From Agromyces humi (lineage in GTDB: Bacteria; Actinomycetota; Actinomycetes; Actinomycetales; Microbacteriaceae), in NCBI RefSeq assembly GCF_009720255.1, contig NZ_WJSP02000003.1, positions 1 through 46,887 of the forward strand: a stretch of 46,887 nt of DNA, in the 5' to 3' direction. The notes beneath the pieces were generated by a model. That model had not been told where the DNA came from. It did no database searches and saw only the letters and a list, made by a program, of their open reading frames with translations. The translations under genes and the position numbers were made by a program. Below, piece after piece: positions 40,408-46,887 of the stretch (positions within the stretch are counted from its first letter, which is position 1; the number at the start of each line of letters is the position of its first letter).

Positions 40408-40746
40408 ATGAGCGACATCGAAGCGGGGGCGTTGAGTTCTGCAGAGGAACTCGTGGTCGAAGCGTTGGTGGCACGGGCGAGGACAGGGGAGTCCTCGTGG
40501 GTGCTGCCGCTCAGGCATAGAAGGACGATCGCTTCGCTGGAACGCGGCGGGGTGGTCACCGTCCTGGAAGCACCGACGGACGATGGGTGCCGGGTGGCGC
40601 TCACCGACGCCGGCAAGGACCGGTTCACCGCGCCGGGGTACGCATCACCGCTCGAGCTTCAGCTGGCCGGTCTCAGAGCCGAACTGGCCGACCTTCGACA
40701 TGCAATCCGGTACGCCGGGCATGCGTGCGTCCCGGGTTCATGCTGA
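40408..40746 (+). CDS. Small soluble protein divergent from fliA
   Basis: 112 aa, nearly leaderless (ATG 2 nt after the predicted start). Helical N-terminus SSAEELVVEALVARARTG, then a strand-turn-strand segment VLPLRHRRTIASLERGGVVTVLEAPTDDGCRVALTDAGKDRF that resembles a small winged-helix domain, and a C-terminal helix ELQLAGLRAELADLRHAI. A DNA-binding role is plausible but unproven. It shares a bidirectional promoter region with fliA. Confidence 0.6.
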   Translation: MSDIEAGALSSAEELVVEALVARARTGESSWVLPLRHRRTIASLERGGVVTVLEAPTDDGCRVALTDAGKDRFTAPGYASPLELQLAGLRAELADLRHAIRYAGHACVPGSC

Positions 40747-40802
40747 GCCTTGTCCGCGCGGTCCGTCTTCACCGCGCCATCAGCACGTCGCCGGCAGGTT
40801 TT

Positions 40803-40811
40803 CCGCGCATG
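40803..40811 (+). promoter_or_regulatory. CGCATG-class promoter-like element of 40845-41282
   Basis: TTTTCCGCGCATG; eight bases later is G (40820), giving a 25-nt leader with a CGGAGG ribosome site. Shares upstream context CGCCGGCA.GGTTT with 21678-21686. Confidence 0.55.
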
Positions 40812-40844
40812 GGTGAGGCGTCCACTCACCCCCGCGGAGGCTCC

Positions 40845-41282
40845 ATGCGTACCCAAGTTCCCTCGTTGTCCAACTTCGCCCGCCAGCAGGCACGCACGGA
40901 ACGGCCGACCGCCGCGTCGGCGCTCCTGACGCCGACGACCGGCCCGATCCAGCAGCACACGACCCGGGAGGCGGCGCCGGAGCCCGGCCTCGTCGACATC
41001 GCCGCGAACGAGATCACCGAGGAGCACGTCGGCGACGACATCACCTTCAGCGTCAGCGGAACCCCGGTCGGAGGGAAGCTCGAGGCGCTCGGCTCCGTGT
41101 TCGGCCTCACCGCGGTGAAGGTCGACGGGGTCTCGTTCCTCCTGGACAACACCGTGACCGTGCAGGTCCGCGAGACGAACATCCGCGAGAAGATCCTCAC
41201 GATCTCCGACCCGGGCCGTCGCGCTCAGCTGATCCACCAGATGTACCTGCGGAAGGGCGGAGCCGCCGGCGACGGTGAGTGA
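40845..41282 (+). CDS. Small soluble protein, unknown function
   Basis: 145 aa. Flexible Gln/Thr/Pro-rich N-terminus (1-50), then a compact beta-rich domain VGDDITFSVSGTPVGGKLEALGSVFGLTAVKVDGVSFLLDNTVTVQVRE and a C-terminal helix ISDPGRRAQLIHQMYLRKGG. No signal, helix anchor or known motif. Followed by a hairpin that can end transcription from both sides. Single-gene unit. Confidence 0.6.
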   Translation: MRTQVPSLSNFARQQARTERPTAASALLTPTTGPIQQHTTREAAPEPGLVDIAANEITEEHVGDDITFSVSGTPVGGKLEALGSVFGLTAVKVDGVSFLLDNTVTVQVRETNIREKILTISDPGRRAQLIHQMYLRKGGAAGDGE

Positions 41283-41301
41283 CCTACCGCTGCAACGCGA
41301 A

Positions 41302-41335
41302 ACGGCCCGCCCCTGCGATGCAGGATGCGGGCCGT
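41302..41335. terminator. Bidirectional terminator hairpin
   Basis: 9-bp stem ACGGCCCGC (41302-41310) with GCGGGCCGT (41327-41335), between convergent genes 40845-41282 and 41351-41917. A at the 5' flank and T-rich 3' flank suit either direction. Confidence 0.75.
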
Positions 41336-41350
41336 CGCTGTTTCCGATGC

Positions 41351-41917
41351 TCACCGTTTCGGGCGAAGCCACCCGCCCTGCAGCCGATCCAGCGAATCGA
41401 CCTGCTCGCGTCGGGCGAGACCGAGCGCGACCTTCGCGCCGACGAGTGCGTCTTCGCCGGCGTCATGGTGCTTGAACGTCGGGAGGTCCAGCATCCGGGC
41501 GACCTTGTCCAGCTTGTGGCTGGGTGCGTTCCGGAACGTCCGTCGCGCCTGCTGCAGGGTGCAGAAGTACCGGAACGGTGGGACGTCCACCTTCACAGCC
41601 GCGGACGCCTGGTCGATGCAGGAACGCTCGAACGACGCGTTGTGCGCGACCAGCGGCAGTTCGCCGTCGCGGCTGAACTTCACCAGGCGACGCAGCACCT
41701 CCGGCCACTCCGGAGCACCGACCACGTCGGACGCGGTGATCCCGTGCACTGCCACGTTCGCCGGGGCGAAGTACGCCCGGCCGACCGGAGGGGTGACGAA
41801 GACGCTGGACGTCTTCACCACCTCACCGTCGACGACCTTCGTCACGCCGATCTGGCAGACCGACCCGCGGGCTGAGTTCGCGGTCTCGAAGTCGATCGCG
41901 ACGAAGGACAGGCTCAC
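41351..41917 (-). CDS. DEDD-family 3'-5' exonuclease
   Basis: 188 aa from a GTG at 41917 overlapping the upstream stop (GTGA). FVAIDFETAN holds the first two acidic residues (Asp9, Glu11), HNASFERSCID the third region, and HHDAGEDALVGAKV the HxxxxD motif, so a DnaQ/epsilon-like exonuclease active site is complete. Resembles the stand-alone DNA polymerase III epsilon-like family. It is co-translated with two membrane proteins, an unusual partnership for a DNA repair enzyme. Confidence 0.88.
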   Translation of the reverse strand: MSLSFVAIDFETANSARGSVCQIGVTKVVDGEVVKTSSVFVTPPVGRAYFAPANVAVHGITASDVVGAPEWPEVLRRLVKFSRDGELPLVAHNASFERSCIDQASAAVKVDVPPFRYFCTLQQARRTFRNAPSHKLDKVARMLDLPTFKHHDAGEDALVGAKVALGLARREQVDSLDRLQGGWLRPKR

Positions 41918-42510
41918 AGGGCCGGCGCCTCTTCGGGACGGTCGATGAAGGCCTTTGTCATCAGGTGGGTTCCGACCCGGTACGCGAACACAGCACCGAA
42001 GACGATGTCCGTCATCCAGATGCCACCGTTGAGCCGGTCGTTCATGGCGGCCCACACGGTGATGCCGGCAGGAACGAGAGCCAGGGCGGCGTTCCACGCG
42101 GCGGCGGTGATCAGCACCTGCAGGACCGTGCGGTTCCGCAGCGTGCTCTCGTACCCGCGGCGGACGTCGTCCCGGATGGCGTCCCGCTGCTCGGGAGCCA
42201 ACCGGTGACGCCACGTACGGGCAGTCACTGCGAGCTGGTTCCCGCCCTTCGCCTCGAAGACCGTCGACAGTCGACCAGAGGCGCTCGACAGCGCAGCGCA
42301 CGCACCGAAAACGGCTGCGAGCAGCAGTGGGTTCAACGTTGCGTCGTCAGAGATCAGCGCCCATGCGATCGCACCGGTGAACGTCACAGCAGTCAGCCAG
42401 ATGTTCCAGCGGAGCCGGCTGTAGTCGACGAACGCCTCCCACGTCGCCACGGCTTCGCGGGCGTCACGTGCTGGCGCGGCGGCGGGCAGCGGAGGTGCGA
42501 ATGAGGTCAC
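41914..42510 (-). CDS. Four-helix membrane protein coupled to the exonuclease
   Basis: 198 aa from a GTG at 42510 (GTGA overlap). Two membrane helix pairs (about residues 37-75 and 125-175: WLTAVTFTGAIAWALI, LLLAAVFGACAALSSASG, VLQVLITAAAWNAALALV, VFGAVFAYRVG) separated by a basic cytoplasmic domain with APEQRDAIRDDVRRGYESTLRNR. The layout is reminiscent of SLATT-type membrane effectors, but no signature is certain. Function unknown. Confidence 0.6.
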   Translation of the reverse strand: MTSFAPPLPAAAPARDAREAVATWEAFVDYSRLRWNIWLTAVTFTGAIAWALISDDATLNPLLLAAVFGACAALSSASGRLSTVFEAKGGNQLAVTARTWRHRLAPEQRDAIRDDVRRGYESTLRNRTVLQVLITAAAWNAALALVPAGITVWAAMNDRLNGGIWMTDIVFGAVFAYRVGTHLMTKAFIDRPEEAPAL

Positions 42511-42893
42511 GCGGCGGTCACCTCGACCGGCATCTCCGGGGTGCGGAGGGCGTTGTACGCCTCCCGCTTGGCGAGGATCGTGTCGCCGAGCTCCTTGATG
42601 CGTGCGGGCAGCGCCGTGAACGCCGAGTACTCGAGGAGACCGAGGGTCAGCAGCACGCCGGCGACCAGCGCAGACGGGACCGAGATCAGCACGAAGTTCA
42701 GCAGCCCGAAGACGAGCGCGAGAGCGACCGCGAAGACCGCGGCGGACAGGAGGATGCCGTACGAACGCCACCACCCGAACAGGCGGAGCGTCTCCAGCCG
42801 CTGAACCTCAGCGACACCGGCGTTCACCTCCTCCTTCAGCTGCACCTTGCGGTGGAGGTCGATCGACGGTGATACGGGGGTGGGAGAGGTCAT
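42507..42893 (-). CDS. Small membrane protein, first gene of the exonuclease operon
   Basis: 128 aa from the ATG at 42893, exactly 8 nt after CCGCGCATG and without a ribosome site, so predicted leaderless. Two or three hydrophobic helices (about 47-95, ILLSAAVFAVALALVFGLLNFVLISVPSALVAGVLLTLGLL) lie between amphipathic cytoplasmic ends. It overlaps the next gene by GTGA. Function unknown. Confidence 0.6.
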   Translation of the reverse strand: MTSPTPVSPSIDLHRKVQLKEEVNAGVAEVQRLETLRLFGWWRSYGILLSAAVFAVALALVFGLLNFVLISVPSALVAGVLLTLGLLEYSAFTALPARIKELGDTILAKREAYNALRTPEMPVEVTAA

Positions 42894-42901
42894 GCCCTGT
42901 T

Positions 42902-42910
42902 CATGCGCGG
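42902..42910 (-). promoter_or_regulatory. CGCATG-class promoter-like element of the exonuclease operon
   Basis: Minus-strand GGTTCCGCGCATG, with the operon ATG exactly 8 bases later. The terminator of the PARP gene ends only 4 nt upstream of the element, so any -35 would have to lie inside that hairpin. This argues for a compact promoter. Confidence 0.65.
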
Positions 42911-42914
42911 AACC

Positions 42915-42947
42915 ACGGCCGCCGCGACGATTGGCCACGGCGGCCGT
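42915..42947 (-). terminator. Terminator of the PARP gene
   Basis: Perfect 10-bp stem ACGGCCGCCG/CGGCGGCCGT (42915-42924 with 42938-42947), 7 nt after the PARP stop codon, 13-nt loop. Confidence 0.8.
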
Positions 42948-42953
42948 AGTGGG

Positions 42954-44270
42954 TCACGCGTCCAGTTCGACGAGGTAGCGCACCTTCACCTGGCGGGTGT
43001 CCCAGACGATCGCCTCGTGGTTGCGGACGCCGGCGGTGCCTGCCTTGACGTTGATCGAGTTCCACGGCTTCCCGAACTGGTTTTTGCTCGAGTGCGCCTT
43101 GGGCCAGTCGGAGTGGGAGGCAGGCCGGTACTCGGACCCCATGGCCACGTCCGCGAGAAGCATGAAGCAGTTCGTCTCCCGTCGGCCAGCGGTCCAGTAT
43201 CCCGTCGAGTACATTGCCGACTTCGACGACTGTGACGACAGGTAGAGCCCATCACCGAACATCCGTCCCGCGATCTGGATCCCCGACCCGGAGCGAGGCG
43301 GGATGAACAGACCCTTCTGCAGGATCGACAGGAGGTTCGCTGCACGGGTGCCGTGCCACAGCTGCTGCTCGTTGCGGATCTCGTCGGCGATCGCCTTGTA
43401 CTCCTTGGCGCCGACCGGGTCGATGAGCTCGAACACGTGCTTGACCTTCAGACGTGACGCGTCGTGGTTCGTGTTCTTCGTCGACTCGAACTTCTCGCTG
43501 ATCCGCTTGAACACGTCTCCGCCGTCCGCGACCGCGCGGATGCGGTACTTGAACAGCGCGGCGATGTCATCCTCGTTCACGCTGTCGAGCGCAGCCGCCT
43601 CGGCAGCTTTCACCTGCGCGTCGAAGAACGACACGGAGTCGCGCAGCTGCTTCAGGAAGTCCCGCTGACGGCCGAGCTCGTCCGCACGGGCGAACTTCGC
43701 ATCCCACCCTGCGGTCCGGCCGACGTTCTGCGGGACGAGGGTGAGGTACCGCTCGAGCTCGCGGCGGCGCCGGTGGGCGTCCTGCTCGGCGGTGAACCGG
43801 TCGAGCACCCGCTCCGCCTCGCTGATCGACGACATCGTCACTAGACCGAGCGGGGTGCGGACCCGACCTGACAGGTCAACGGTGATCCGGCCTCCGGAGA
43901 TCGTCGCCACGTCGTGCGCGTTCACCTTGCAGATCCGCTCGATCAGGTCGGCGACGCGGGTGTCGGTGCGAGCCTTCCCCTTCGTCAGCCCGGTCTTCGC
44001 CAGGTCGGTGATCGCGGTGTTCGCGCTGCGGTTCGTGGTCACGGCGGGCTCGTCGGCGATCTGGACCTTCTGGTAGCCCTTCCGCATCTTCTGGCGGATG
44101 ATCGACTCGTACCCGGCGCGGCCGGACATGTCGGACAGCTTCGTGCCTGCAGCACCGACCCTGCCGTACTCCTTCTCGACCCGGCCTGTCGTGCCGTCGA
44201 GCACCACGCGGTAGAACTTATTGCTGTTCGCGACCGTGTCGACCAGCACCAACATCGTCTCTTCTCTCAT
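42954..44270 (-). CDS. WGR-domain poly(ADP-ribose) polymerase (PARP)
   Basis: 438 aa from the ATG at 44270, 8 nt after CCGCGCATG; an ATG 15 nt inside with an AGAAGAG site is possible. Residues 5-80 are a WGR domain (VDGT-type FYRVVLDGTTGRVEKEYGRVGAAGTK). A helical middle (about 85-300) is followed by the PARP catalytic domain: LWHGTRAANLLSILQKGL (His306), MFGDGLYLSSQSSKSAMY (Tyr343) and NHEAIVWDTRQVKVRYLVEL (Glu419). The H-Y-E triad is intact, so NAD-dependent ADP-ribosylation is likely, with WGR sensing nucleic acid ends. Adjacent Ter genes suggest a stress response. PARPs are uncommon in bacteria. Confidence 0.9.
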   Translation of the reverse strand: MREETMLVLVDTVANSNKFYRVVLDGTTGRVEKEYGRVGAAGTKLSDMSGRAGYESIIRQKMRKGYQKVQIADEPAVTTNRSANTAITDLAKTGLTKGKARTDTRVADLIERICKVNAHDVATISGGRITVDLSGRVRTPLGLVTMSSISEAERVLDRFTAEQDAHRRRRELERYLTLVPQNVGRTAGWDAKFARADELGRQRDFLKQLRDSVSFFDAQVKAAEAAALDSVNEDDIAALFKYRIRAVADGGDVFKRISEKFESTKNTNHDASRLKVKHVFELIDPVGAKEYKAIADEIRNEQQLWHGTRAANLLSILQKGLFIPPRSGSGIQIAGRMFGDGLYLSSQSSKSAMYSTGYWTAGRRETNCFMLLADVAMGSEYRPASHSDWPKAHSSKNQFGKPWNSINVKAGTAGVRNHEAIVWDTRQVKVRYLVELDA

Positions 44271-44278
44271 GGCACAGA

Positions 44279-44287
44279 CATGCGCGG
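44279..44287 (-). promoter_or_regulatory. CGCATG-class promoter-like element of the PARP gene
   Basis: Minus-strand TTCCCGCGCATG. The PARP ATG begins exactly 8 bases later. Confidence 0.65.
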
Positions 44288-44313
44288 GAAGCGGACGATT
44301 TCTGAGCGCAACG

Positions 44314-44346
44314 GAGGGCCCGCCGCATCGTTCACGACGGGCCCTC
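44314..44346 (-). terminator. Terminator of terD
   Basis: 9-bp stem GAGGGCCCG/CGGGCCCTC (44314-44322 with 44338-44346), 8 nt after the terD stop codon. Confidence 0.8.
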
Positions 44347-44354
44347 TGCCGGCA

Positions 44355-45014
44355 CTACTTGTACAGGTTGCGTGCGCCCTGGTCCATGACGAGCGACCCG
44401 CCGACGAGCGCGGGGCGGAGCTCGGATCCGGGCTTGGAGTACAGCTCGAGGGACTCGACCTGGATGCCGTCGGAGGTATTGCGGATCACGCCGATCGCGA
44501 CGGAGTAGATGGTGTCGTTGGCGTTCGCGTTCTTCGCATCGATCGTCACCTCGGAGCCGGCACCGTTCGACAGGGCGAGACCGACCTTGTACTTCCGGAA
44601 CGACCCGGTCCCGTTCGACTGGGCGGAGTACGCGACCGGGTACACGGCGGCGATCTCGTCCGTCATCCGGATCTCGATGGTCTCCTGCGCGACGCCCTTC
44701 GCCCCGCGGCCGACGTCGCCGAGGTGGCGGACGGCGCCGTTGTGGATCGACTGCTTCGGGTGGCGGTCCGCCTCCGAGCCGAAGGTTGCGACGGTCTGGA
44801 CGGACCCGTCACGAAGCTCGACGAGGGCGTAGATGTCGTAATCGGTGTTCGACGACCACGACACCGTGGCGGTCACCAGCGGGGACTTCTCGATCGTGAC
44901 GCGGGCGCCCTTCTCGAGGCTGATCTTCCCAGACTGCTTGCCGAGGTCGAGCCTGGCAGGCGCCGGCGGCGCGGTGGCAGCCGGGGCTGCGGTGTTGCGG
45001 TTGAACAGACCCAT
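44355..45014 (-). CDS. terD: TerD-family stress protein
   Basis: 219 aa from the ATG at 45014 with an AAGGACC site. After a 25-residue Pro/Ala linker, the TerD domain reads ISLEKGARVTIEKSPLVTATVSWSSNTDYDIYALVELRDGS and later VTIDAKNANANDTIYSVAIGVIRNTSDGIQVESLELYSKPGSEL. TerD proteins bind calcium and act in tellurite, phage and stress responses. One of the canonical calcium-binding segments looks modified. It has its own promoter directly after the HAD gene. Confidence 0.88.
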   Translation of the reverse strand: MGLFNRNTAAPAATAPPAPARLDLGKQSGKISLEKGARVTIEKSPLVTATVSWSSNTDYDIYALVELRDGSVQTVATFGSEADRHPKQSIHNGAVRHLGDVGRGAKGVAQETIEIRMTDEIAAVYPVAYSAQSNGTGSFRKYKVGLALSNGAGSEVTIDAKNANANDTIYSVAIGVIRNTSDGIQVESLELYSKPGSELRPALVGGSLVMDQGARNLYK

Positions 45015-45065
45015 GGAGGTCCTTTCGTGTCGGGGTGGGCGCCACAGATGCGGTGCCAGGTAGGA

Positions 45066-45074
45066 CATGCGCGG
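45066..45074 (-). promoter_or_regulatory. CGCATG-class promoter-like element of terD
   Basis: Minus-strand CCGCGCATG beginning right after the HAD stop codon. Eight bases later is G (45057); leader 43 nt. Confidence 0.6.
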
Positions 45075-45893
45075 CTAGGCTGCAGCCTCCCGATGCCATG
45101 TGATCTGCGAGTCGACATACGCGAGGATGTCCTCGCCCGCCACGGCTCCGGAGCGTGCCGTCACGGCGAGCCCTGAACCGCCGTGTTCAGCGAGTTCGCC
45201 GTGCGCTGGGCGGATCGCTATGTCCGCCCACTTCATCAGCCCGACGTCTGTGGCAGAGTCACCTGAGGCTGCGGTGACGGTCACACCGAGCCGCCTCGCA
45301 ACCTCCGCAGCTGCCGCCTCTTTCGTCACTCCGTTCGGGATCAGGTACACCTTCCCGCGGCCTTGGACCGACACCTGATATCCGGCACCCGCGGCGAACG
45401 CGCGAACGGTTGAGATGAACTCCTCTGGTGGGGTGTAGCCGGTTTCGGGCGCGACGCAGACGAACAGCCCTGCGGTGAGCTTAACGGTGCGAAGCCACGG
45501 GCTGCCGTGAGCGAAGCGGCTCACCCGGTCGAACACCTCCGCTGGCGCTGCCAGGTCTCGGATCTGCTCGGCCACCTGAGCGGTCCACGCTTCGTCCTTC
45601 ACTCCGTCGACGATGATCTGTCCGCCGTTCGCGACGATCGCGTACTCCGGGGTCACGCCGGGGATCCTCACCCGTTCGTACTGCACGAAGTCGCGGGTGG
45701 TCGTGGGGACGAATGCGACCCGGCTGGAGAAATCCTGCAATGCGAGGACCGCGTTCCATGTCATGAACGACGCAGGCTTGTCTCGGAACGTTTCCACGAC
45801 CACGGAGCCGGTGAACCCGTCGGGCTGGTCGTCGTAGTGGCGCGCGGAGAAGATCGTCGTGCCGTCCAGGTCGGCGAAGAAGGCCCCGGTCAC
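45075..45893 (-). CDS. HAD-family phosphatase of the Ter module
   Basis: 272 aa from a GTG at 45893 overlapping the upstream stop (GTGA). Motif I FFADLDGTT (Asp8, Asp10), a cap-type middle region with VRIPGVTPEYAIVANGGQIIVDG, and motif IV SGDSATDVGLMKWADIAI, as in Cof/trehalose-phosphatase-like HAD enzymes. Such a HAD next to a PRTase-like protein is typical of Ter operons, where they are thought to make or process a nucleoside-like metabolite. Confidence 0.88.
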   Translation of the reverse strand: MTGAFFADLDGTTIFSARHYDDQPDGFTGSVVVETFRDKPASFMTWNAVLALQDFSSRVAFVPTTTRDFVQYERVRIPGVTPEYAIVANGGQIIVDGVKDEAWTAQVAEQIRDLAAPAEVFDRVSRFAHGSPWLRTVKLTAGLFVCVAPETGYTPPEEFISTVRAFAAGAGYQVSVQGRGKVYLIPNGVTKEAAAAEVARRLGVTVTAASGDSATDVGLMKWADIAIRPAHGELAEHGGSGLAVTARSGAVAGEDILAYVDSQITWHREAAA

Positions 45894-46887
45894 GCGGCTG
45901 CCTTCCCGTCGAAGCCGGTGGCGCCGCGGGTGAACTTCGGGTGGATCAGACCGATCGCGGTGAAGGGCAAGTCTGCGACCTCTTCGACGGGGACGCCGCG
46001 GTCCTCGGCGAGGAGCCGGATGTGCGCGACTTCGGCGGTGGCGCCGGCGCGGACGAGCACCTTCCAGGGGACACGACGGAGCAGCACCCGGGTGGTCTCG
46101 CCGACGCCGGGCTTGACCAGGTTGACGCTGCCGATGCCGTACTCGTCGGAGATGCGCTCGACGGCGTCCCAGCCGCCCCAATCCGCCGCCTCGGCGGGCT
46201 GGGCAGCGGCTTCGCGGGCTGCCGTGACGAGCGCATCGTCGAACTCGGCGGAGACCTCGTCGATGAACGTCATGGTGACGTCCGCCACAGCGAGGTCGCG
46301 GTAGAACTTGGCGCCGTGGAAGTCTCCGGGGCCGATGAGGTCGTCGCGGAGCACTGTGCGGGACACCAGCCCGGAGACGGTGGAGTTCAGCGCTGCTGAA
46401 GGGATCAGGTAGTCGTCGCGGGTGCCTGAGATCGCGGCGCACCGGCCGGGGTCGGCGAGCACTGCGAGGTCTGAGGAGAACCGGTCGCCGGTGTGGGCGT
46501 TGTGGTCGATGACCGCGACGGCGAGCTCGCGCGAGATCGCACCTTTGCCGGTCCACCCGTCGACGAAGACGGCGTCGGCGGCGTTGTGGTGGGCGGCGAT
46601 GTAGCTGAGGGCGTTCGAATCGATGCCTTTGCCGCGGACGATCGAGACGGCGTAGTGGGGGACGTCGGCGCCGTAGGTGCGGGCGATGTACCGGCGGATG
46701 AGGACTCCGACGGGTGTGCCGGCGCGGGCGAGGGAGACGAGGACGGGATTCCCAGCGCGGGCGGTCCAGATGCGCTCCGCGGCGGTGGCGACGTGGAGAG
46801 CAACCTGTCGGCGGTGCTCGGTCAGCGAATGACGGAACAGGTCTTGGTATGCCGGGGTGGGCTGGTACTCGATCGGCAGCGCCTCGG
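45890..46887 (-). CDS. Ter-module phosphoribosyltransferase-like protein (StiP family), partial
   Basis: At least 331 residues; the N-terminus lies beyond the window edge, as the frame stays open to 46887. It shows LVSLARAGTPVGVLIRRYI, PHYAVSIVRGKGID, FVDGWTGKGAI (the PRPP loop region) and a C-terminal domain with IGSVNLVKPGVGETTRVLLRRVPWKVLV. This is the PRTase-like protein found with TerD and HAD genes, often annotated as cysteine protease StiP. It presumably uses PRPP, by family. Coupled to the HAD gene downstream. More Ter genes probably follow outside the window. Confidence 0.85.
   Translation of the reverse strand, partial: EALPIEYQPTPAYQDLFRHSLTEHRRQVALHVATAAERIWTARAGNPVLVSLARAGTPVGVLIRRYIARTYGADVPHYAVSIVRGKGIDSNALSYIAAHHNAADAVFVDGWTGKGAISRELAVAVIDHNAHTGDRFSSDLAVLADPGRCAAISGTRDDYLIPSAALNSTVSGLVSRTVLRDDLIGPGDFHGAKFYRDLAVADVTMTFIDEVSAEFDDALVTAAREAAAQPAEAADWGGWDAVERISDEYGIGSVNLVKPGVGETTRVLLRRVPWKVLVRAGATAEVAHIRLLAEDRGVPVEEVADLPFTAIGLIHPKFTRGATGFDGKAAA

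Follow-up and report, generated by a model that had tools for sequence, protein, structure and literature searches.

What does it mean that a gene for a poly(ADP-ribose) polymerase (PARP) stands next to Ter stress genes near the end of a 46,887-nucleotide stretch of Agromyces humi DNA? This stretch (hereafter the window) is the whole of contig C223, from a fragmented assembly of 812 contigs. A sequence-only reading had proposed that PARP, the Ter genes, an exonuclease and membrane effectors form one response to DNA damage or phage. Our results suggest instead that PARP and its Ter neighbours probably form separate cassettes on one carrier, since the nearest relative of this PARP has no Ter genes and lies near genes of ADP-ribose-binding or ADP-ribose-removing types. 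With moderate confidence, we describe the carrier as a flagellar megaplasmid with a stand-alone PARP, with a macrodomain and a NADAR as candidate erasers on the same replicon, and with Ter forming a stress cassette of its own.

The PARP gene (42954-44270, minus strand) encodes a homologue with WGR, helical and ADP-ribosyltransferase (ART) regions. Its ART domain matches Pfam PF00644 (5e-28, 98.4 bits) and its WGR domain matches PF05406 (8e-7, 29.6 bits against a cut-off of 22), and the triad H306, Y343 and E419 is invariant in 15/15 and 21/21 aligned sequences. In the predicted model (mean pLDDT 79.8), strands at residues 2-47 and a helix at residues 50-63 lie in the WGR region. Helices at residues 104-227 lie inside the range that aligns with PARP-1, which points to a helical regulatory domain by predicted fold, and weakly by sequence. 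Structurally, the model comes closest to human PARP-1 WGR+CAT bound to a DNA break (Z 25.6, 380 residues, root-mean-square deviation 4.2). Pfam, the alignments and this match bear out the earlier claim of a PARP with an intact H-Y-E triad and a WGR domain, and sequence and model together confirm it as a predicted WGR-type PARP with the C-terminal architecture of PARP1/2/3. The family to which it adds a member is already known from megaplasmids and jumbo phages. Bacterial WGR-PARPs have been described from Herpetosiphon and C. difficile CD160, with Leifsonia sp. Leaf264 in an actinobacterial clade (PMC5966428). The protein studied here shares with those described there the WGR, helical and ART regions, the H-Y-E triad and the common tyrosine at the first WGR position, its motif reading YGR. 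What sets it apart from them is its setting: a contig of flagellar megaplasmid type, Ter genes as neighbours, and a replicon-specific start motif ahead of it.

In other genomes, Ter genes lie close to PARP in few lineages. Our census comprised 102 PARP loci in 58 lineages (at 60% identity), the window included; one duplicate (L058, of L033) was dropped, and two partial WGR-type matches (L025 and L026) were left out. Neighbourhoods were taken as flanks of 10-15 kb, many of them ended by contig ends. A full-length PARP occurs in 3 of 398 family genomes, namely the window's genome, G745 and G794, and three further matches are short and restricted to the WGR region. The nearest ortholog found, in G745, is 64.5% identical and lies on a 701-kb contig (C5) that also carries FlhA and FliC; no StiP, TerD, TerC, TelA or phosphoribosyltransferase (PRTase) profile match was found on the whole of this contig. 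A gene of 153 amino acids divergent from the G745 PARP looked TerD-like by eye and was discarded, having no Pfam match. The G794 PARP is 41.6% identical to that of the window, and no Ter profile matches within 40 kb around it. Three Curtobacterium megaplasmids with a TerD/TerC/TelA cluster have no PARP match, and among 149 relatives StiP is present in seven and PARP in none. Ter genes lie in the PARP flanks at 6 of the 102 loci, or in 4 of the 58 lineages, the window included; elsewhere they are near PARP on a Pseudomonas FeN3W megaplasmid, in two Klebsiella phages and on two viral contigs. The expectation that the two are kept together across relatives thus fails.

TerD was also sought anywhere on the records of 49 of the 101 non-window PARP loci, that is, named plasmids, phages and viral contigs longer than about 160 kb, leaving out one of two near-identical Stenotrophomonas phages and the loci on genome contigs. 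It was found on 13 of the 49 records (8/12 plasmids, 2/5 phages and 3/32 viral contigs). PARP and Ter genes therefore show a weak tendency to occupy the same region of large elements, with no fixed pair.

The signals around the genes also favour separate units. Strong hairpins follow the TerD-like gene (44306-44353, minus strand; -34.7 kcal/mol for 44295-44354, z -4.58) and PARP (42912-42950, minus strand; -34.8 kcal/mol for 42905-42953, z -4.61). Neither has a T run, and both may be U-less terminators, a type considered common in actinobacteria. Another strong hairpin follows the exonuclease gene (41292-41350, minus strand; -35.6 kcal/mol for 41290-41350, z -5.33). The candidate hairpin between the HAD-type and TerD-like genes is not notable (z -1.09), so these two genes could share a transcript. 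In addition, three genes here have a separate CCGCGCATG motif on the minus strand: one copy lies upstream of the TerD-like gene (45066-45074), one 8 nucleotides before the PARP start codon (44279-44287), and one 8 nucleotides before the ATG of the first membrane-type gene, at 42507-42893 (42902-42910). A further copy, on the plus strand (40803-40811), lies upstream of the open reading frame (ORF) at 40845-41282 (plus strand). No sigma-70 promoter or T-tailed terminator was found in 40700-46887. Flanked by hairpins and preceded by a start motif of its own, PARP looks like its own putative transcription unit.

This motif is replicon-specific and associated with gene starts. Its form is CCGC[G/A]CAT[G/A]-N8-ATG/GTG, and contigs of flagellar megaplasmid type from three lineages (the window's genome, Curtobacterium and G745) share it. 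The window has 12 copies of CCGCGCATG, where 1.22 would be expected (at 2924, 4756, 8844, 13755, 21678, 21716, 22742, 39447, 40803, 42902, 44279 and 45066), and motif forms are present at loci L016, L183 and L186 as well. An ATG or GTG follows after 8 nucleotides at 5 of the 12 sites, that of PARP included, and the spacing is identical before the PARPs of G745 (CCGCACATG) and G794 (CCGCGCATA). Across the genome, CCGCGCATG-N8-ATG/GTG matches 68 times, spread over 18 of the 812 contigs, and the reversed pattern matches 6 times. We then counted start codons opening at least 60 amino acids at each offset, comparing offset 8 with the mean of the other 44 offsets. Offset 8 has 61 starts against a mean of 3.1 on the window's replicon (14 motif-bearing contigs, 370 kb), 46 against 3.9 on G745 C5, and 13 against 0.48 on the Curtobacterium stretches. 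The window-genome contigs were chosen for their motif matches, and motif density on them is therefore not independent evidence; the unselected comparison is within G745, where CCGCGCATG and CCGCACATG together occur 199 times in the 701 kb of C5 and twice in 140 kb of C1. A scan for enriched 8-mers returned mostly codon-bias words, yet it surfaced the Curtobacterium form of the motif. A phage source was considered and rejected: Microbacterium phage Pumpernickel has two motifs in 35 kb, none at offset 8. The simplest reading is that the motif would act as a promoter of leaderless genes. It can tag contigs and genes of such replicons, and it points to a dedicated regulator.

Candidate erasers of ADP-ribose are found on C800, another contig of the window's genome, which carries one NADAR and one macrodomain (Macro) protein. 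The closest solved relatives of the latter are 5m3i ('RNase III inhibitor'), 5m31 ('Appr-1-p processing domain protein') and O-acetyl-ADP-ribose deacetylase 1/C6orf130; we take the first two chains to be DarG macrodomains and the last to be TARG1. The window contig itself has no Macro or NADAR match, and thus no eraser adjoining the transferase in the manner of DarTG. On G745 C5 there are three macrodomain ORFs, two of which (185.4-185.9 and 191.0-192.0 kb) lie about 3-10 kb from PARP at 195.1 kb, and a NADAR and a NAPRTase are present on the same contig. ADP-ribosylation of guanosine is reversed by NADARs, and marks on phosphate ends by some macrodomains, TARG1 among them (PMC11833690). The known systems for comparison are DarT-DarG and DarT-NADAR (PMC11125620, PMC11833690). 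The present set resembles them in its macrodomain, closest to the presumed DarG and TARG1 chains, and in its NADAR; it differs in having a PARP as the writer, with no eraser beside it in the window. A writer/eraser set of PARP, macrodomain and NADAR is plausible.

Related gene types appear on other elements. Two annotated Curtobacterium plasmids (L141, 16689-21081; L138, 19000-24989) have TerD between a gene of PRPP-synthetase or phosphoribosyltransferase type and a nicotinate phosphoribosyltransferase-NADAR pair, followed by NUDIX; a TnpB gene intervenes in one of these clusters, which resemble an NAD+ recovery cassette. The likeness is to NARP1 NAD+ reconstitution (PMC12774641), as the Curtobacterium TerD homolog is flanked by PRPP-synthetase-like and NAPRTase/NAMPT_N genes; unlike in NARP1, such genes were not seen in the window, and those of Curtobacterium would be candidate counterparts of Adps and Namat. 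On a Mycolicibacterium austroafricanum contig (L050, 18153-21252), NAPRTase- and NUDIX-type genes lie at most 10 kb from PARP. The closest phage macrodomain (52%), in phage Pumpernickel (L249, 16348-18220), is annotated 'ADP-ribosyltransferase' though the match is to a macrodomain; it lies one gene from an RNA ligase of RtcB-like type, in a region rich in tRNAs.

The Ter genes, for their part, form a recognizable module when two contigs are considered together. StiP, HAD and TerD-like genes are in the window, and a PRTase-like gene, TerC, TelA and three TerD genes are on C800, which probably continues the window, judging from the PRTase-StiP gene order in relatives. The components of Ter stress systems are summarised in PMC7824862; the window's genome matches them in having StiP-PELOTA, HAD, PRTase-like, three TerD, TerC and TelA genes over C223 and C800, and differs in that the TerD beside PARP belongs to a divergent subfamily and that PARP is not among the components listed there. 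The suggestion that further Ter genes lie beyond the contig end is thus supported by C800, given the inferred join. For ATP-grasp, a model built from one FeN3W protein matched only itself among the PARP loci scanned and nothing in the Ter-bearing relatives or on C800, the stretch between PRTase and StiP being unsequenced. Three other contigs, C60, C299 and C350, were considered as continuations of the contig ends and rejected because their joins look like assembly chimeras; in one example, an ORF that reads as HemL-type from its sequence continues into part of a PRTase gene. Over short stretches (L006, 1-127; L143, 1-127; L007, 207-296) they are nearly identical to the Ter genes, after which they diverge, and the apparent chimeric joins fall at the StiP and PRTase genes. 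In Pseudomonas sp. FeN3W (L034, 5120-21730), PARP is located in a Ter island, with two VWA genes, an HpcH/HpaI aldolase, StiP, phosphoribosyltransferase and ATP-grasp on one side and two TerD genes on the other, and a gene for RNA 2'-phosphotransferase adjoins PARP.

The window would be a fragment of a flagellar megaplasmid, as judged from its gene content. Its flagellar region (13440-40474, minus strand) runs from a csrA-like gene and FlhA to FliD, FliC and a sigma factor, the names coming mostly from sequence and from annotated Curtobacterium plasmids. Its FlhA is 64-65% identical to those on three Curtobacterium plasmids (546-608 kb) and 67-68% identical to those on Arthrobacter and Pseudarthrobacter plasmids, and between the flagellin region and csrA its genes follow the order seen on two annotated Curtobacterium plasmids. 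These three named Curtobacterium plasmids are also the basis for assigning the carrier to the Microbacteriaceae. All three carry the window's TerD subfamily, together with genes in the order TerC-TerD-TerD-TelA-hypothetical-TerD. One of them also has StiP, the other two being judged from the stretches covered and the best 60 of 2567 matches. No phage structural genes were noticed in the window.

The last 5.5 kb of the window carries, in minus-strand order, genes for StiP-PELOTA, a HAD-type protein, a TerD-like protein, PARP, two small proteins with hydrophobic stretches and a DnaQ-type exonuclease. The gene at 45890-46885 (minus strand), taken in the sequence-only reading for PRTase-like, is StiP (4.2e-88, matching from profile position 39) plus PELOTA_1 (1.4e-34), its 5' end cut by the contig end. 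Its stop is overlapped by the start of the HAD-type gene (45075-45893, minus strand), which has 18.9 bits in Pfam against a cut-off of 20.9 and weak matches to HAD-IIB models; ORFs beside StiP in Ter-bearing relatives match it, and the observation of a HAD next to TerD holds. That of TerD next to PARP holds as well, though the protein is of a divergent subfamily (44355-45014, minus strand; 15.5 bits against 25.3). Its homologs, at 50-53% identity, are on three Curtobacterium plasmids and one Rhodococcus plasmid; three of the four are annotated 'TerD family protein', and the fourth record is unannotated. None of the 149 relatives matches this subfamily.

On the other side of PARP, the first hydrophobic-stretch protein (42507-42893, minus strand) has its ATG start 8 nucleotides past the motif (the ORF list gives a GTG start at 42938), and the start of the second (41914-42510, minus strand) overlaps the preceding stop. 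These are the presumed membrane effectors: the two ORFs and their hydrophobic stretches are there, and neither has a Pfam family. The second has no match in 99 relatives or in the plasmid collection. The exonuclease (41351-41917, minus strand; RNase_T 2e-17) is 51% identical to its counterpart on G745 C5, where the same order exonuclease-sigma-FliC-FliD is found. Given this synteny, it is best assigned to the flagellar side, and its proposed membership in a PARP system is not borne out. In a PADLOC scan of seven window proteins, the exonuclease alone matches (CRISPR-associated DEDDh model, PDC-S48); PARP, TerD, HAD and StiP have no PADLOC match.

Several observations weigh against the picture of separate cassettes with a self-contained ADP-ribose set. 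The PARP_reg model of Pfam scores 16.2 bits in the window PARP, under the cut-off of 26.8 (27.6 bits, over the cut-off, in the G745 ortholog), and the putative activation by DNA would involve a WGR motif that reads YGR. The join of C800 and C223 is not assembled, the PRTase-StiP gap being unsequenced, and the distance of about 9-10 kb between Macro and PARP in the window's genome is conditional on it. Macro, NADAR or ARH genes lie in the PARP flanks at 17 of the 102 loci and in 11 of the 58 lineages, which favours a writer/eraser set, but these are raw counts without a matched control, and macrodomains of this type are found in 377 of 50,697 phage records and 86 of 72,556 plasmid records. Start codons on G745 C5 also show smaller peaks at offsets 3 (32) and 6 (16). 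Furthermore, in the 13 records with both, PARP and Ter lie closer together than under uniform placement (Fisher P = 0.0014), and after dropping kin P is 0.010 or 0.020. This proximity speaks for a joint response in which Ter would make a nucleoside-type signal and PARP would be the ADP-ribose effector on DNA damage or phage, as do the adjacency in the window, the full Ter island around the FeN3W PARP, the Ter genes near PARP in the Klebsiella phages and viral contigs, and TerD on two-thirds (8/12) of the PARP plasmids. The predicted co-occurrence stands for these elements and is absent from the flanks of most lineages. We nevertheless consider a joint response quite unlikely: the G745 contig lacks the Ter families searched, the Curtobacterium plasmids have TerD/TerC/TelA without a PARP match, Ter genes reach the flanks of 4/58 lineages, StiP and PARP differ in their spread among the relatives (7/149 vs 0/149), and motifs and hairpins suggest separate units. 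Found apart from Ter in its nearest relatives and with its own start motif and hairpins, PARP mostly does not support the single response proposed earlier.

The many PARP homologs outside bacterial chromosomes bear on two other readings. The matches comprise 70 viral contigs and 15 phage records, two of the 15 covering just 32%. The PARP of jumbo phage XacN1 (BBA65562.1) is 35% identical over 100% of the window PARP and has GMP reductase, thymidylate synthase and CCA tRNA nucleotidyltransferase among its neighbours; look-alikes of DNA ligase, RNA ligase, topoisomerase and thymidylate synthase (named from sequence) recur beside PARP in phage lineages. PARP could have come to megaplasmids as a take-over or repair enzyme of jumbo-phage type, modifying host machinery or protecting replicating DNA or RNA ends for the element. 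Such neighbours suit this reading, as does the number of viral matches, yet ligase-type genes are frequent in jumbo-type phages anyway, their recurrence is a raw observation without control, and the window's replicon has a flagellar locus and no phage structural genes noticed; we regard the reading as improbable. It would accord with the suggestion in PMC7824862, which also notes a jumbo-phage PARP, that phage ARTs modify RNA polymerase. The XacN1 protein is like ours in its full-length match and unlike it in sitting in a phage genome (PMC7824862). Proteins of about 200 amino acids recur downstream of viral PARPs (L092, L099, L119, L115 and others) in clusters of 8 and 5 lineages, one with an AbrB-like match below cut-off; they were rejected as conserved partners, none being seen beside the window PARP. 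The same viral homologs make PARP an odd candidate for an abortive-infection toxin that would burn NAD on phage DNA and be held by a linked antitoxin. A SocA_Panacea (antitoxin-type) gene does follow the G794 PARP (L186, 17636-19999), with a CCGCGCATA-N8-ATG site between them, and the macrodomain and NADAR on the window's replicon and NAPRTase, NADAR and NUDIX on sister replicons would fit. However, no Panacea match was found among the Pfam-scanned neighbours in the window and in part of those of G745, and PARP has no match in the defence library searched; we consider the toxin an unlikely account.

Under the reading of separate cassettes on a shared carrier, the WGR and helical domains would keep PARP inactive until it meets a nucleic-acid break, either the replicon's own or one from an invading phage or plasmid. 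Activated PARP may then attach ADP-ribose to protein or nucleic-acid ends close by, a mark that the replicon's own DarG/TARG1-type macrodomain and NADAR could remove. PARP and Ter would each be turned on by way of the start-associated motif common to the replicon, and not as one pathway. Activity tests existed for few bacterial PARPs as of 2018 (PMC5966428), and the present one sits on a large replicon of mobile type that also has candidate erasers. A guess about a single locus is thus replaced by a testable picture, in which the motif and the possible private ADP-ribose set are the points of interest. More tentatively, flagellar megaplasmids of Microbacteriaceae might run a replicon-private expression programme, with the motif and perhaps a dedicated sigma factor or activator. 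Part of this programme might be an ADP-ribosylation economy of the replicon's own, in which a PARP that senses breaks, a DarG/TARG1-type macrodomain and a NADAR as erasers, and NAD-salvage genes would together guard the replicon against breaks, phages or rival elements.

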